A stretch of DNA of 64,000 nucleotides, from contig LJUY01000002.1 in NCBI GenBank assembly GCA_001304015.1, forward strand, positions 68,299 through 132,298. The letters run 5' to 3'. Source of the DNA: a candidate division Zixibacteria bacterium SM23_81. Lineage in GTDB: Bacteria; SM23-81. A program made the translations under genes and the position numbers. The notes beneath the pieces were generated by a model, which was given only the letters and a program-made list of their open reading frames with translations, did no database searches and was not told where the DNA came from. Numbering within the stretch: the first letter of the stretch is position 1; the number at the start of each line of letters is the position of its first letter. This document shows, piece after piece, positions 2,291-51,583 of the stretch.

Positions 2291-2848
2291 TCAGGATCGC
2301 TGGTATTTCCGGATGCCCTCCTGATAGAGGTCACCACCATGAGCGTCCTGAGCCACGATCACTGGGAAATCCTCCACCACCAGACGACGAATAGCCTCCG
2401 TTCCCAAATCCTCATAGGCCACAACTTCAGCGCCTTTGATCGCCTTGGCGATGAGAGCCGCCGCACCACCCACCGCACCGAAATACACCGATTTGTAACG
2501 CTTCATCGACTCCACCACCGTCTCTCCCCGCGGTCCTTTGCCGATCATCCCCTTGAGACCTTCCGCGATGAGCTTGGGAGCGTAGGGATCCATGCGATAG
2601 CTGGTGGTGGGTCCAGCCGATCCAATGGGCTTTCCCGGTTTGGCCGGCGACGGCCCCACGTAATAAATAACTTGGCCCTGAATGTCTATGGGCAGGTCCT
2701 GACCCTGATCAAGAAGCTCCACAAGACGTTTATGCGCCGCGTCTCTTCCTGTATAGATAACACCGTTGAGGAGCACCTTGTCTCCAATTCTCAGCTTGGT
2801 CACATCTTCATCCGAGAGCGGCGTTGTGAGTTTTATCGTTTCCGCCAC
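2291..2848 (-). CDS. Class I fumarate hydratase, beta (C-terminal) subunit
   Basis: 185 residues matching the C-terminal half of class I (iron-sulfur) fumarases and the beta subunit of tartrate dehydratase-type enzymes. The typical opening of this subunit (LTTPLSDEDVTKLRIGD, then YTGRDAAHKR) and the GPTTSYRMD stretch are present. With the alpha subunit it would interconvert fumarate and malate in the cytoplasm. The two-subunit form is common in anaerobes and thermophiles, and its 4Fe-4S cluster is oxygen-sensitive. The alpha gene ends 70 bp upstream. Tartrate dehydratase is the alternative, but the lack of tartrate genes and the link to hdr favour fumarase. Confidence 0.9.
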   Translation of the reverse strand: MAETIKLTTPLSDEDVTKLRIGDKVLLNGVIYTGRDAAHKRLVELLDQGQDLPIDIQGQVIYYVGPSPAKPGKPIGSAGPTTSYRMDPYAPKLIAEGLKGMIGKGPRGETVVESMKRYKSVYFGAVGGAAALIAKAIKGAEVVAYEDLGTEAIRRLVVEDFPVIVAQDAHGGDLYQEGIRKYQRS

Positions 2849-27583: not shown

Positions 27584-29227
27584 TTATCCCCACCACACCT
27601 CGTCGTTCTGGCCAACGACGAAAACCTGATTACGCCCACTCTTCTTGGCCGTATAAAGGGCCTCATCGGCCCTCTCCACCAGATCTTTTCCGTTATCAGC
27701 GTCCTCCGGGTAACTGGCCACCCCTATACTGACCGTCAGCCGCTTCTGCGGTTGGAGCTGTCCGTGAGGAAATTTGTAATCCCCAATCTTCTTGCGGATT
27801 CTCTCGGCCACCTTCCAGGCACCCATTTTGTTTGTCTCAGTGAGGATGATGGCGAATTCCTCGCCACCATAACGAGCCAGGATATCGATGTCCCTGATCT
27901 CGGCCTTAATCAGCTGTGCTATGATTCTGAGGATTTTATCTCCCGTGGGATGTCCACACACATCGTTGTAATGTTTGAAGAAGTCGATATCCAACATGAT
28001 CACCGAGAAGCTCCGATGGTGACGATGGCTACGGCTCTCCTCGTCCCTCAAGCGTTCCTGAAAATGCCTGTGATTGAAGAGTTTCGTAAGACCGTCGGTG
28101 ATGGAGTGCTGCTTGGCATTCTGGTAAGCCCGGGCATTTCCCAGGGCCATGGAGACCTGATCGCTCAGAGCACCCCAGAACAGCTCATCGTAGTCGCCAA
28201 AGGCGGTATCCCCTTGGCTCATCAACATCAACAGGCCGATGAGTTTTTCCTGCACCTTTAAGGGAAGCAAAGCAGTAAATCCACCCTTTTGGGAGGATTC
28301 CTCTTCCTTGTGATGGAGACTAAGCTCTGCTGAGATCACCGGCCTGCCCTTTTCGACCACTTGTTGAATCAAACCTTCCGCTTCGGCTAGCTTGGCCAGC
28401 AGAACGCGAGAATCGCCTTTGGGCGCTCCTTCAGTCCACTCCTCTCGCTCCTCATCCCACAGCAATATGGCGCATTGTCGACATTTCAGACGTGCTTTAA
28501 CGACCTCCACTATTCTTTCCAGCAAAAGATCAAATTCCAGGAAGCTCCCGATTTCCCTGCTGATTTCGCAGAGGATATTCAAGCCTTTGGCCGGAACCCT
28601 GGGTGGTTCGGGAAGCGTCAGGTTCTGGAGAGCCTGAGTCGCCTGGATGGCGAATAATTCCAAGAGAGCGATGGTCTGAGCATCTGGTCCTTGCCCATCG
28701 AGAGGTCCATCTACGGACATCACACCCAGCAGTTTTCCGTCGGTCCGAACCAGAGGAGTAAAAAGAGTGCCATCGGGATACCTGCTGGTTCGATGAGCGG
28801 ATTGCCCCTCCATTTTCAGATCAGATTTCGGGGCAGTGCCCTGCTGGTTGTTGATGAAATAGGAGTTGCTGATTTTATGCTCATCCTGAAAAAACTGGAA
28901 AAAGTAATCCTCCGGCACCCGCTGCCCTTTAAACCTCTGAAATACCTCCTGGCTCAATCCCGCCTGGGCTTTTCGTATAAACATGTGGTGATCCCTGTCA
29001 TATAGGCTGATGAGCACTCGCCGAAATCCCAGGCTGCGTTGCACCGCTTGGGCCACTTGATCCAGAAGATCTTCCAGTTCGAGCTGCCGACCAAGGACCT
29101 GGCTGAGATTTTGGATCTCACTCAGCCAGCGAGTCTGTGCCTCCAGTTGGGCATTTTTTCTCTCTAGCTCCTGACGAAGCGTATCCAAAGATCGAAAGTC
29201 CACCTTTTCTCCTTCCCGCTGGGCCAT
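27584..29227 (-). CDS. GAF-GAF-GGDEF diguanylate cyclase
   Basis: 547 residues from the ATG at 29227, which has GGAGGA 10 bases upstream (a longer frame to 29368 would run through the promoter). A short coiled coil (about 10-45) precedes two GAF sensory domains (about 40-190 and 205-370) and a C-terminal GGDEF domain with an intact GGEEF active site (ARYGGEEFAIIL). It should make c-di-GMP in the cytoplasm in response to an unknown GAF signal. No RxxD inhibitory site was confirmed. An HD-GYP gene with a c-di-GMP riboswitch lies about 21 kb away. Confidence 0.93.
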   Translation of the reverse strand: MAQREGEKVDFRSLDTLRQELERKNAQLEAQTRWLSEIQNLSQVLGRQLELEDLLDQVAQAVQRSLGFRRVLISLYDRDHHMFIRKAQAGLSQEVFQRFKGQRVPEDYFFQFFQDEHKISNSYFINNQQGTAPKSDLKMEGQSAHRTSRYPDGTLFTPLVRTDGKLLGVMSVDGPLDGQGPDAQTIALLELFAIQATQALQNLTLPEPPRVPAKGLNILCEISREIGSFLEFDLLLERIVEVVKARLKCRQCAILLWDEEREEWTEGAPKGDSRVLLAKLAEAEGLIQQVVEKGRPVISAELSLHHKEEESSQKGGFTALLPLKVQEKLIGLLMLMSQGDTAFGDYDELFWGALSDQVSMALGNARAYQNAKQHSITDGLTKLFNHRHFQERLRDEESRSHRHHRSFSVIMLDIDFFKHYNDVCGHPTGDKILRIIAQLIKAEIRDIDILARYGGEEFAIILTETNKMGAWKVAERIRKKIGDYKFPHGQLQPQKRLTVSIGVASYPEDADNGKDLVERADEALYTAKKSGRNQVFVVGQNDEVWWG

Positions 29228-29323
29228 TTTTCTAATTTTCCTCCTGCCAGTTGGGCGGCCCCCCAACGCTGAAAAAACCGGCCAGAGGATTACCCGTGCC
29301 CATCGCTCCTGAGGCTCACAAAA

Positions 29324-29352
29324 AACATACTCAATTCTAGCTCTCAATGCAA
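29324..29352 (-). promoter_or_regulatory. Promoter of the GGDEF gene
   Basis: Minus strand TTGCAT (29352-29347), 17-base spacer, TATGTT (29329-29324). The leader of about 90 nt contains a 6-bp hairpin (29250-29267) shortly before the ribosome site. Confidence 0.6.
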
Positions 29353-29361
29353 GCATTTTTC

Positions 29362-29390
29362 TTGACAAGAGGGGCCGGAATAGCTAGATT
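29362..29390 (+). promoter_or_regulatory. Promoter of mazG
   Basis: Plus strand TTGACA (29362-29367), 17-base spacer, TAGATT (29385-29390), about 35 bases before the ATG. It starts 10 bases beyond the -35 of the divergent GGDEF promoter. Confidence 0.78.
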
Positions 29391-47155: not shown

Positions 47156-47182
47156 AAAAAAAACGGCGGACTGAGTCCGCCG
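47156..47182 (-). terminator. Intrinsic terminator of the metalloprotease gene
   Basis: Perfect 8-bp stem CGGCGGAC/GTCCGCCG with a 3-base loop (47164-47182), followed on the minus strand by eight T residues (plus A run 47156-47163). Confidence 0.92.
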
Positions 47183-47211: not shown

Positions 47212-49080
47212 TTACCGCACCACAACCATCTTCCTGGTTTTCACGAAATCCCCGGCCTTAAGCTGGTAGAGATAGATCCCGGCAGACACCCGCTCTCCCC
47301 GAGCGTTGGTGCAATCCCACCCCCCCATCTTCCAGTCAGGGCCATCATGATGTCCCGGCTCTAGATATCCCTCGTACTTGTGCACTACTTGACCGTCTAT
47401 GGTGAAAATCCGGAAGGAGACTTGTCCCCCCGCGGCTACGTAAAAGGGAATGACCGTACGATCACCGACCACTGGATTGGGATAATTCTGGCCCAACCAG
47501 GTGACCGTCTGACTGGGCTCGGTGAGGCTGGAATCCGGCACTCCTCGATAGGCATATTGCAGGCCGCTCCCCGAGAGGGCAAAAGGGGTGATCACCAAGG
47601 TCACCTCTCCATATTGGCTCCAGTTGAGCATCTGACCTGATCCACGCCCCAAGACATTCAAGGAGATCCCGACGATCTCATGAGGAGGTCCGATGCCCAA
47701 CAGGGCGGCCTTCCATGAAACCTGTGGTTGACCTTCCAGCTCTATTCTCAGGCCACCCGGGGTGTCCTGGGTCACAAAGCGAGCATAGCTGGCGCCCAAA
47801 GGCTCAGGAGGATAGGAGACAGAGTCCACCACCACGGGATAATTCGAGTGCACATTGTCGGTATAAACGGCGACCTGAGGATATCGATTCCCCTCGGGAT
47901 AAAAAAGGTTCGTATCCGCGCGAGAGCCGGTGAAATAGTTCCAAATGGCAAATTCGTTATGCGCTGAGGCCAGAGTCATACCGCGACTGTCTAGAACCTC
48001 CCCCATGGCGTCCAGTGCCGTCTTTTGAACGCACCCCTCCCAGATTTCTCTCATTATGCGTCGGCCAAATCTTTTGGCCAAATAGTGGGCCCACACGCAA
48101 CTGCTGTACTCGTGGATCCCGTCAAATGTGACCAGTGAAAGCTCAGGACAGTTGAAAAGGGCGGAAGATCCAGAAGCGAGATAATAATAATAGTCGTTAA
48201 CCGCATCGTAGACCACGTCCTCCATCCAGGTGGAGGAGATTTCCATGAAAAAGCGCTCCTCCCGGGTGTCGTAAGCGAACTGAACGGCGTGAAAGAACTC
48301 ATGGGCCGCGGTGACCATCAATCCGGCGTTCCCAGGAGTCGGATAAATGGAGCTGGAGTAATCGTTGTCCACCACCAAGTAGCTCGTGGTGGCCAGCGGG
48401 TGACCCTCAGGAACGACATACTCGCTCTGGGTATATCCGTAAACCCAGTGGTTGTCAAGGTCTTCAACATAGACGTCGTATCGGGAATCCCCTCCATAGT
48501 CCTCATCCCCATACCAGGGCCCGTCAGCGGGAGGCTGCCTGTAGCCTAGAGAATCCACCTCCACCTCCCATACATGGTCGAAGACCTGGGCACAGAGATG
48601 GATCCAGTCGGGGATTGTGTCGCCGTGGGTATATACGGGTACTGGACTGTCGCGGGTGGAAGTGACGTACCAGATGCGGAAGTGACCGCCCGGGCTATCG
48701 TAGTAGACCGCCGGGACGAGATAGGAATGGCCGTAAGGAAAGGGTTCCTGACCAGGTTCGGTGGGCCGCAGCAAGTAAGGAGCGAGCATCGCCTTTGCCC
48801 GCGGACTTAAACTATCCCAGTGAGTTCGAACCTCCAGTAACAATGGGGTCAGCGATTTGAGGAATCTTCGGGGTTGGCTTTGAAATCTGGGGGGAAGCCG
48901 TTGCGGATCTAAAACCGCCCAGACCCGATACACCAGGGAGGTTTCAGCGTCCAGTTCCCCCCGTAGATGGGCCTGGGTAATCACATCAAGGGAGCTCAGC
49001 TCTCCGACATTGGCTTCTGGCTCCATGGCAGAGGTATAAAAAAGGGCTAGAACAAAAGCAAACACAAAGAAATTCCGCAA
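47212..49080 (-). CDS. Secreted metalloprotease with FlgD-like C-terminal sorting domain
   Basis: About 622 residues from the TTG at 49080 (GAGG upstream), which gives a clean signal peptide RNFFVFAFVLALFYTSA; the frame extends to a TTG at 49134 inside the PHP gene. A zinc-protease motif HEFFHAVQFAY lies near residue 260, like the MXAN_6640-type predicted metalloproteases. The last about 90 residues are a FlgD-Ig-like module (QNYPNPVVGDRTVIPFYV; SAGIYLYQLKAGDFVKTRKM) as used for C-terminal sorting or anchoring in FCB bacteria. No sorting machinery is nearby. A strong terminator follows. Confidence 0.85.
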   Translation of the reverse strand: MRNFFVFAFVLALFYTSAMEPEANVGELSSLDVITQAHLRGELDAETSLVYRVWAVLDPQRLPPRFQSQPRRFLKSLTPLLLEVRTHWDSLSPRAKAMLAPYLLRPTEPGQEPFPYGHSYLVPAVYYDSPGGHFRIWYVTSTRDSPVPVYTHGDTIPDWIHLCAQVFDHVWEVEVDSLGYRQPPADGPWYGDEDYGGDSRYDVYVEDLDNHWVYGYTQSEYVVPEGHPLATTSYLVVDNDYSSSIYPTPGNAGLMVTAAHEFFHAVQFAYDTREERFFMEISSTWMEDVVYDAVNDYYYYLASGSSALFNCPELSLVTFDGIHEYSSCVWAHYLAKRFGRRIMREIWEGCVQKTALDAMGEVLDSRGMTLASAHNEFAIWNYFTGSRADTNLFYPEGNRYPQVAVYTDNVHSNYPVVVDSVSYPPEPLGASYARFVTQDTPGGLRIELEGQPQVSWKAALLGIGPPHEIVGISLNVLGRGSGQMLNWSQYGEVTLVITPFALSGSGLQYAYRGVPDSSLTEPSQTVTWLGQNYPNPVVGDRTVIPFYVAAGGQVSFRIFTIDGQVVHKYEGYLEPGHHDGPDWKMGGWDCTNARGERVSAGIYLYQLKAGDFVKTRKMVVVR

Positions 49081-49112
49081 CCTCTTCCGAGCCTCTATCT
49101 TTTGGAGGTATC

Positions 49113-49955
49113 TTACGATCCCGACTGTAGCCAACGTTTACGCTTTTTCAAAGCAGTGACGCAGTGATATGGCACGGACAGTTTGCCCAGCATGGTCTCT
49201 TGACCAAATCGGGTTCCATGGCAATCTGAGCCACCGGTGACCAAGAGACCATAACAATTGGCCAGACGAAGGTAATGGCGCCTGGCCTCAGTATCGTGCC
49301 TGACATGATAGGCCTCCAGCCCATCCAGCCCTAATTCCACCAGAAACGGAATGAGATCGTCCCTTCCCAGGACTGCTGGATGCGCCAGCACGGCCACTCC
49401 CTGAACGGAATGGATGAGCTCGATGGCCTCCTGAGCCGTCAAACCTATCTTAGGAACGTATGCAGGAGCGTGATAGCCCAAATAGCGAGCGAAGGCCTCA
49501 CGATAGCTACCCACATATTCCTCGCGAACCAGGGCATCGGCCACGTGAGGGCGCCCCAACGGAGCCTCCCCGGCAATGGCCATCACCGTTTCCATCTGGA
49601 GATCGACCCCCAGTTGGTTGAGCTTATCGACGATCTTCTGCCCTCGATGATATCTGGCCCGCTGAAAACGCCGGATTTCTCTCAGCAGAGTTGGCGCGCG
49701 GTAATTCACCAGATACCCCAGCAGATGGACATCTGCACCGTCGTCGTCGACGCTCAGCTCCACCCCAGGGATAATCTCCAGCCCACTGCCCCTCGCAGCG
49801 CAAATGGCGTGATCTATAGCCGCAACGCTATCGTGGTCGGTGATGGCAATGGCCAACAATCCCCGATCGAGAGCTCGCTGAACGACCTCGTGAGCACTCT
49901 GTTGCCCATCCGATGCCGCGGTATGAATGTGAAGGTCAACTCTCTTTTTAGTCAT
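49113..49955 (-). CDS. PHP-domain phosphoesterase (RNase AM/TrpH-like)
   Basis: 280 residues. Metal sites are VDLHIHTAASDGQQS, ITDHDSVA, the PGVELS glutamate, GVAVLAHPAVL and the closing GGSDCHG. The family includes the 3',5'-nucleotide bisphosphate phosphatase and 5'-3' exonuclease RNase AM (YciV/TrpH). It probably clears pAp or RNA ends in the cytoplasm. It is followed within about 30 bp by the metalloprotease gene. No promoter assigned. Confidence 0.9.
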   Translation of the reverse strand: MTKKRVDLHIHTAASDGQQSAHEVVQRALDRGLLAIAITDHDSVAAIDHAICAARGSGLEIIPGVELSVDDDGADVHLLGYLVNYRAPTLLREIRRFQRARYHRGQKIVDKLNQLGVDLQMETVMAIAGEAPLGRPHVADALVREEYVGSYREAFARYLGYHAPAYVPKIGLTAQEAIELIHSVQGVAVLAHPAVLGRDDLIPFLVELGLDGLEAYHVRHDTEARRHYLRLANCYGLLVTGGSDCHGTRFGQETMLGKLSVPYHCVTALKKRKRWLQSGS

Positions 49956-50066: not shown

Positions 50067-50720
50067 TCAAACAACCTCCTGGGTGCCGACCATAATTTTG
50101 CCCTTCGCAAAAGCCGCACAAAAGGCCTCCACTATTTGAGGATCGAACTGGGTCCCAGCTTCCTCTCGCAACTCTTGGAGGGCCTCCTGGGGCGATAAGG
50201 CCTTTCGATACGGCCGATTTGAGGACATCGCATCGAAAGAATCGGCCACCGTAAGAATTCGAGCCTCCAGGGGAATTTGGTCTCCCCCAAGACCATCTGG
50301 ATAGCCTCTGGCATCATAACGCTCGTGATGGTGCCGGATGACGGGAATGATATCGGCCAGCTGTTCTACCGACTCCAGAATACGAACACCCAGGAGGGGA
50401 TGAAGTCTGATGGCCGCCATCTCCAACTCGCCTAAGGGTGCTGGCTTGCTTAAAATGAATGCCTCTACGCCGATCTTGCCTATGTCGTGCAGCAGAGCGG
50501 CAATCTCCAGGCGTTCCAACCTGTGGGGCGAAAATCCCAGCTCGACACCAATGGCCAAGGCGTACTGACACACTTTCACGGAGTGACCTCGGGTATGAGG
50601 ATCCCGAGCGTCAATGGTTTGAGAAAGAGCATGCAGGAGACCTATGAATTGCTCCTGTAGATCTTTCACTTTCTTTTGGAGCCGGGCCTGATTGTTCTCA
50701 GCTCGCGTATGGCTCTTCAT
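50067..50720 (-). CDS. HD-GYP-domain protein, probable c-di-GMP phosphodiesterase
   Basis: 217 residues. A short coiled coil (about 8-30) leads into an HD-GYP domain: TRGHSVKVCQYALAIG, the HD pair in ALLHDIGKIG, HHHERYDARGYPDGL holding the GYP motif, and VADSFDAMSSNRPYRK. All expected metal residues are present, so activity as a c-di-GMP phosphodiesterase is likely. There is no sensor domain. Its transcript begins with a c-di-GMP-I riboswitch and overlapping terminator, which points to feedback by its own substrate. Confidence 0.92.
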   Translation of the reverse strand: MKSHTRAENNQARLQKKVKDLQEQFIGLLHALSQTIDARDPHTRGHSVKVCQYALAIGVELGFSPHRLERLEIAALLHDIGKIGVEAFILSKPAPLGELEMAAIRLHPLLGVRILESVEQLADIIPVIRHHHERYDARGYPDGLGGDQIPLEARILTVADSFDAMSSNRPYRKALSPQEALQELREEAGTQFDPQIVEAFCAAFAKGKIMVGTQEVV

Positions 50721-50802
50721 CCTACCCCCTACTTTTTAAAATATATGCTTAACTCAAATAATCTGCAACATTTTTCTTTCAGGCAGTCCCATCACGGGGC
50801 GT

Positions 50803-50852
50803 AGAAAAGCCGGGTTGCCATAACTACCCCTTACAGACTTCGGCAACCCGGC
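50803..50852 (-). terminator. Riboswitch-controlled terminator before the HD-GYP gene
   Basis: Perfect 11-bp stem GCCGGGTTGCC/GGCAACCCGGC (50852-50842 with 50819-50809), 22-base loop, then TTTTCT. The 5' arm is the 3' strand of the aptamer, so aptamer folding and terminator are mutually exclusive. Confidence 0.88.
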
Positions 50853-50984
50853 CGTCATATCAAGTCCAAAGCAGAAGCTTGAGCGGAGCCCAGATTTCCT
50901 GAGCCGGAAGGGAACTCCTGAATTGGACTTGACTTAGACCCGTAGCTTTGTGCACTACCCTTTCAGGTAGATTACCCTGATCGG
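50841..50984 (-). promoter_or_regulatory. c-di-GMP-I (GEMM-I) riboswitch aptamer
   Basis: Minus-strand RNA shows each part of the class in order: GGGTAA (50977-50972), a hairpin CTACCT-GAAA-GGGTAG (50970-50955) with the GNRA loop, the joining CAAAGC (50950-50945), ACGGG, the tetraloop receptor TCTAAG (50938-50933) with TATGA (50859-50855), and GGCCGGGTTGCCG (50853-50841). GGTAA pairs with TTGCC, a T-G pair replacing the usual C-A contact, and the receptor C-G is replaced by T-A; these paired changes support the fold. The third stem is extended to about 70 nt. Ligand binding should block the overlapping terminator, giving an ON switch. Confidence 0.88.
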
Positions 50985-51011
50985 TCTGTGATGATCGGGA
51001 TGATCTATCCG

Positions 51012-51041
51012 ATTATGACGAATCCCTCATCTGGTATGCAA
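51012..51041 (-). promoter_or_regulatory. Candidate promoter of the riboswitch-HD-GYP transcript
   Basis: Minus strand TTGCAT (51041-51036), 18-base spacer, CATAAT (51017-51012), placing the transcript start about 20-25 bases before the aptamer. Confidence 0.55.
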
Positions 51042-51550
51042 CTAATATGCAAAAAATGTGCCTACTTAGACCTCTTCCGCAACTTAGTTGTCTAAAAATG
51101 ATGCCTTTTCAACCTTTCTCTATAAAACGTCCTGATAACCAATTGTTTAATAAGAATTTGTACATTTAACTTGATCCCCCATCTGAGATGATGATGTGCG
51201 TCATACATGAAAGCTGAACCGCTCCCAATACGCCTCATTGGGTAAGGTTTTCTTTCCATCTGACGGTATCCGCTCGAATCCACTGGGATCACCTGTTTCA
51301 TCAACATGGCCTTCATAGCCTTTGCCTCTGTTAATCGTCCGCAACTGTTTTCTATCTGGCCAAAGGCAAACCCTGCATGAAGCATGCCTTGCACTCGCAA
51401 ACGGCAGGCCAAACGTGTTGAGATTATTTAAGTACTTTCCTGAAATTAGGTTATCTTCACGGCCTGGGGGGAAAAACAGCTGCCTGAAAACCTGGGCTCA
51501 GTTTGCAATTCAATTTTGCAGATTACAGCTTTTCCAAATAAACTCTTGAT
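51042..51550. other. Region between the riboswitch promoter and the ftcD operon terminator
   Basis: A minus-strand frame of 106 codons (51092-51412) is the only sizeable one. It has several internal methionines, no clear ribosome site and no recognisable family, so I do not call it a gene. No plus-strand gene is seen. Confidence 0.4.
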
Positions 51551-51583
51551 AAAAAAGCCGAGTCAGCACATTTCTGACTCGGC
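51551..51583 (-). terminator. Intrinsic terminator of the galT-ftcD operon
   Basis: Perfect 10-bp stem GCCGAGTCAG/CTGACTCGGC (51557-51583) with a 7-base loop, followed on the minus strand by six T residues. It lies 35 bp after the cyclodeaminase stop. Confidence 0.92.

Follow-up and report, generated by a model that had tools for sequence, protein, structure and literature searches.

The window, a 64-kb stretch of DNA from candidate division Zixibacteria bacterium SM23_81, carries an intact c-di-GMP-I (GEMM-I) riboswitch aptamer and an overlapping, mutually exclusive terminator in the leader of a gene for an HD-GYP domain protein. It is likely that this element is an ON riboswitch and that, with the phosphodiesterase operon behind it, it forms a negative feedback loop on c-di-GMP. 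The sensor class and the switch design are already known. The circuit is uncommon, and it would place a homeostatic c-di-GMP loop acting through a riboswitch in an uncultured candidate phylum. All features of the window given below lie on its minus strand (-).

The Rfam covariance model for c-di-GMP-I, RF01051, matches positions 50839-50986 over its full length (model positions 1-87) with 61.4 bits (E 1.4e-9), against a gathering score of 35 bits. No non-standard pairs are marked in the alignment. A preliminary description had placed a GEMM-I aptamer in the minus-strand leader of the HD-GYP gene and proposed an Infernal run with this model as the check, which is strongly positive. c-di-GMP-I is the sole Rfam family above threshold in the window, and no other RNA family was found in the leader at E <1. 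The aptamer is also the only GEMM-I copy found in the genome (3.07 Mb, 93% complete). With weaker clan matches left aside, the best clan model for 50839-50986 is RF01051 and not RF03167 (c-di-GMP-I-GGC). The leader (50800-51010) folds far more stably than shuffled versions of itself (z -5.8). The RNA is a genuine member of the known c-di-GMP-I class.

Each part of the aptamer is in place. The P2 stem (50950-50975) forms 8 of 8 pairs and carries a GAAA tetraloop of the GNRA type at 50964-50961, while P3a forms 7 of 7. The basal P2 pair is U-A where the consensus has C-G, which keeps the pairing. The joint CACAAAG is present and the tetraloop receptor in P3 reads CUAAG/UAUG, so the GNRA hairpin, CAAAG joint, receptor and paired substitutions described earlier all stand. 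A possible lower P1, with CAGAC (50984-50988) as its 5' strand complementary to GTCTG (50838-50834), forms in the aptamer-constrained fold. Ligand contacts were assigned by equivalence to Vc2, after PMC11218506 and PMC4759541. The equivalents are G20 at 50976 (RF01051 model position 11), A47 at 50949 (model position 38) and C92 at 50843 (model position 83), the last placed by alignment and not by a solved structure. The interhelical C44-G83 pair likewise has its equivalents, C 50952 and G 50852, in the alignment to the model. With these contacts intact, the aptamer is predicted to bind c-di-GMP.

A different ligand was considered. The aptamer could sense another cyclic dinucleotide, 3'3'-cGAMP, that the HD-GYP enzyme degrades. 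The best PDB sequence match of the enzyme is 5z7c, a 3'3'-cGAMP phosphodiesterase of V. cholerae, and its substrate is therefore not certain. The RNA argues otherwise. In cGAMP riboswitches (GEMM-Ib) an A replaces G20, a change that confers cGAMP binding, and the position here is G. cGAMP riboswitches also contact their ligand via A14 in J1/2, and the best clan model is plain c-di-GMP-I. A cGAMP sensor is thus very improbable, and we take c-di-GMP as the expected ligand.

Binding could be read out through an intrinsic terminator at 50809-50852. Its stem is a perfect 11-bp inverted repeat, GCCGGGTTGCC (50852-50842) and GGCAACCCGGC (50819-50809), with a stability of -24.5 kcal/mol. The tail that follows, TTTTCT (50808-50803), is a short U tract, which counts against the switch model. 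As the preliminary description had it, the 3' strand of the aptamer doubles as the 5' arm of this terminator: 50852-50842 lies inside the aptamer and contains the 3' strand of P3a, the C92 equivalent and its neighbour, and P1 nucleotides. Because the arm is built from these nucleotides, aptamer and terminator are mutually exclusive. Before the 3' arm is included, the aptamer fold (-72.8 kcal/mol) and the best fold (-76.4 kcal/mol) are 3.6 apart. Once it is included, the terminator fold (-93.7 kcal/mol) is ahead of the aptamer fold (-77.4 kcal/mol) by 16. These energies indicate that termination is the default and that the bound aptamer is the plausible route to read-through. The Shine-Dalgarno sequence lies ~70 nt beyond the U tract, making translational control unlikely.

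The same arrangement bears on the direction of switching. In an OFF switch the ligand would promote termination, and high c-di-GMP would lower the phosphodiesterase and amplify the signal by positive feedback. In C. difficile, class I riboswitches do work as OFF switches (PMC11477304). Here, however, the 5' arm of the terminator consists of aptamer nucleotides needed for binding, and in the leader no alternative antiterminator was seen that could keep the terminator from forming when no ligand is bound. We give an OFF switch hardly any weight. An ON switch is the expected direction, by analogy with the same layout in Bc3, Bc4 and Bc5 and in pilM, discussed below.

The leader appears to be transcribed from a sigma-54-type promoter, GGCAC-N5-TTGCA at 51048-51062, found by motif match. 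The start expected from it, ~51037, suits the interval 50720-51041 that the preliminary description had assigned to the leader. The motif matches exactly at this one place in the window, where 0.26 matches would be expected, and the genome encodes RpoN. A comparison genome from a sister genus of the same family (G001; Ca. Zixiibacteriota CSMAG_1598, contig DAOVRJ010000051.1) has GGCACAATATTTGCA at the homologous place. Genome-wide the motif is weakly over-represented, with 17 occurrences vs 12 in a reversed control, so the case for the promoter rests on position and conservation. Sigma-70 promoters were rejected, as their count is near chance level. The upstream cyclodeaminase gene has a strong terminator of its own at 51557-51583 (10-bp stem, TTTTTTAT), ~77% identical in G001. 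This terminator points to the leader as a transcription unit of its own.

The first gene behind the leader (50067-50720) encodes a stand-alone HD-GYP domain protein of 217 aa, a putative cyclic-dinucleotide phosphodiesterase (PF13487, E 5.9e-40), preceded by the Shine-Dalgarno sequence AGGGGG at 50730-50725. The protein has the HD_5/HD domain, the HD, H, HH and D metal ligands and the HHExxDxxGYP motif of an HD-GYP phosphodiesterase. The set is complete (H46, H78-D79, K82, H107, H130-H131, GYP 139-141 and D160) and conserved in G001, and these metal-binding and GYP motifs confirm the earlier identification of the gene. The enzyme would act on c-di-GMP in the cell, judging from its motifs.

Two further genes follow. 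A PHP-domain protein (49113-49955, PF02811), probably co-transcribed, resembles RNase AM and nucleoside bisphosphate phosphatase; against the nearest NCBIfam models for these, NF041577 and NF047791, it stays below both cut-offs. Its gene is directly 3' of the HD-GYP gene in both genera. The protein might clear pGpG or other short phosphodiesterase products; no match to the Orn (oligoribonuclease) family was found in the window's genome. The probable last gene of the operon (47212-49134) encodes a secreted MXAN_6640-type metalloprotease with a T9SS sorting tail (NF045524 and TIGR04183, both above cut-off). This arrangement loosely recalls that of PPEP-1 in C. difficile, likewise a secreted protease controlled by a c-di-GMP riboswitch of class I. 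A strong intrinsic terminator at 47164-47182 (8-bp stem, then TTTTTTTT) closes the probable operon. Because the PHP and metalloprotease genes lie on the same strand ahead of this terminator, the riboswitch probably governs all three genes. The genome encodes five GGDEF domains (c-di-GMP synthases). One GAF-GGDEF protein with a GGEEF motif, likely a diguanylate cyclase, is encoded in the window at 27584-29368.

In the proposed pathway, the transcript from the sigma-54-type promoter would open with the c-di-GMP-I aptamer. At low c-di-GMP, the 3' strand of the aptamer would be captured by the 3' arm once that arm has been synthesised, and the resulting terminator would stop transcription short of the HD-GYP gene. 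At high c-di-GMP, the bound aptamer would hold the strand of P3a, C92 and P1, and the terminator would be blocked. RNA polymerase could then go on to transcribe all three genes, those for HD-GYP, PHP and protease. The HD-GYP enzyme would in turn lower c-di-GMP, completing the negative feedback loop.

G001, having the same gene order and no recognisable sensor half, offers a natural experiment on the ways in which riboswitch control may be lost or shifted between operons, and on what the long P3 arm may do alone. No further close relatives were found; a scan of genome contigs returned the G001 contig only, and viral contigs gave nothing useful. The orthologous HD-GYP gene in G001 is 64-67% identical, with the gene order the same. 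Fourfold sites of three neighbouring genes are 47-52% identical between the two genomes, which puts silent change close to saturation. Compared with this baseline, identity reaches 74% in the sigma-54 box, 78% in the P3 arm (83 ungapped bases) and 77% in the terminator segment, whereas the sensor half (50940-50989) is at the neutral level, 44%. The P3 arm differs significantly both from 50% (p 1e-7) and from the sensor half (p 8e-5).

What is left of the sensor in G001 is fragmentary. GGGC stands in place of the GNRA loop, P2 retains 3 of 8 pairs and P3a 4 of 7, and the C92 position holds U. Rfam finds no GEMM-I in this leader even at E 10. In place of the sensor half, the G001 leader (L052:1415-1634 (-)) has a new hairpin, GUCCAGGGACAG...CUGUCCUGGGC, with a predicted stability of -18.5 kcal/mol (z -2.0). 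The terminator is conserved (-27.7 kcal/mol, with one C-G to U-G change). Since the sensor half was lost and the rest kept, the lineage can do without c-di-GMP control of the HD-GYP gene. The one GEMM-I detected in G001 belongs to RF03167 (63.5 bits) and lies at L051:173-342, between prepilin-peptidase and pseudopilin genes. No GEMM-I was found at the syntenic pilin site of the window's genome (L162 ~2340-2490 (-)) at E<=1. In these two incomplete genomes, the pattern hints at a reciprocal loss or at control that moved between operons. The preliminary account of the leader is supported as far as sequence reaches, and what it lacked were the two further genes of the probable operon, the promoter of sigma-54 type and the finding that G001 no longer has the sensor half.

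This loss also raises the prospect of an inert riboswitch. The aptamer would bind, but the promoter and a constitutive terminator would set expression, and the aptamer would be on its way out, as in the sister genus. There the sensor half has drifted to neutral identity while promoter, P3 arm and terminator were kept. The Bc1 precedent points the same way and counts against the switch model, in that a bound GEMM-I with terminators may leave expression unchanged (PMC11218506). The 16 kcal/mol by which the terminator fold is more stable than the aptamer fold fits as well. An unused aptamer should decay, however, and here all P2 and P3a pairs and all contacts are intact, one pair through compensation. 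We therefore regard an inert aptamer as improbable and retain the ON switch as the preferred reading.

The most interesting point raised by the leader is the function of its long P3 arm (50855-50940). The arm comprises the receptor CUAAG...UAUG and an extension of ~64 nt, which includes a conserved internal loop (7x7). An unusually long third-stem insert of about 70 nt had been pointed out before, and it is borne out by 64 residues outside the model alignment vs 3 in the consensus. The arm folds at -36.5 kcal/mol (z -4.3). Relative to G001 it has 18 substitutions, which break 2 of 29 pairs where 5.9 would be expected (P 0.02), and the internal loop is almost identical. Identity above the silent level and the few broken pairs indicate that selection maintains arm and terminator in a leader seemingly unable to bind c-di-GMP. 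The P3 arm thus seems to be selected independently of c-di-GMP sensing. A covariance model of the arm and terminator gave strong matches in G000 and G001 only among 290 genomes, and a weak match in G061, where it overlaps a GEMM-I aptamer together with a terminator. We rejected a short upstream ORF that would begin at the receptor AUG, since its G001 sequence stops after ~10 codons.

More speculatively, the arm could be a regulatory module in its own right, one that binds a protein or a second ligand and works through the terminator it shares with the aptamer. G001 would then have dropped the sensor half and kept module and terminator for the same phosphodiesterase. On this view the leader would respond to two inputs and be in the midst of rewiring, one genus having kept c-di-GMP sensing for the phosphodiesterase and the other for the pilin genes. 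We think this rather unlikely.

How unusual the circuit is was gauged from a survey of 36 genomes spread over bacteria, a sample and not an exhaustive set, with 103 GEMM-I aptamers and 92 downstream proteins. The window's aptamer is the longest (146 nt, median 83), owing to its extended P3 arm. By a simple script, 30 of the 103 have a terminator overlapping the aptamer, and the expression platform itself is therefore ordinary. The target is not. Of the 92 proteins, the window's alone is HD-GYP and one is GGDEF, as counted over the 25 commonest of 106 families, so that a lone EAL gene might have escaped the count. When every downstream frame was searched with an HD-GYP profile, the window's gene was again the only one found. 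New here, beside the conserved promoter and the comparison with G001, is the wiring: in the survey only the window's GEMM-I stands before an HD-GYP gene, and a self-correcting arrangement is rare.

Among the closest known systems are Bc3, Bc4 and Bc5 of Bacillus thuringiensis, in which the ligand prevents termination and which are ON in E. coli reporters. In these too, according to the available text (PMC4759541), the terminator strand is drawn from C92, P1 and P3 nucleotides. Unlike the window's single aptamer, they form a tandem triple before a csp operon and not before a phosphodiesterase, and that text does not mention a long P3 arm for them. Bc1 of the same species has a c-di-GMP-I aptamer with G11, A38 and C81 contacts and terminators (PMC11218506). 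It differs in having two terminators, a chemoreceptor gene as its target and no in vivo response. The pilM switch of Geobacter metallireducens has the GEMM-I fold and a mutually exclusive aptamer and terminator, and is a tested transcriptional ON switch, but it senses c-GAMP and controls pilus genes (PMC9262584). Also close is the RF03167 riboswitch before the pilin genes of G001, of the same clan and from the same family of organisms as the window's aptamer, but of another subfamily and on another operon.
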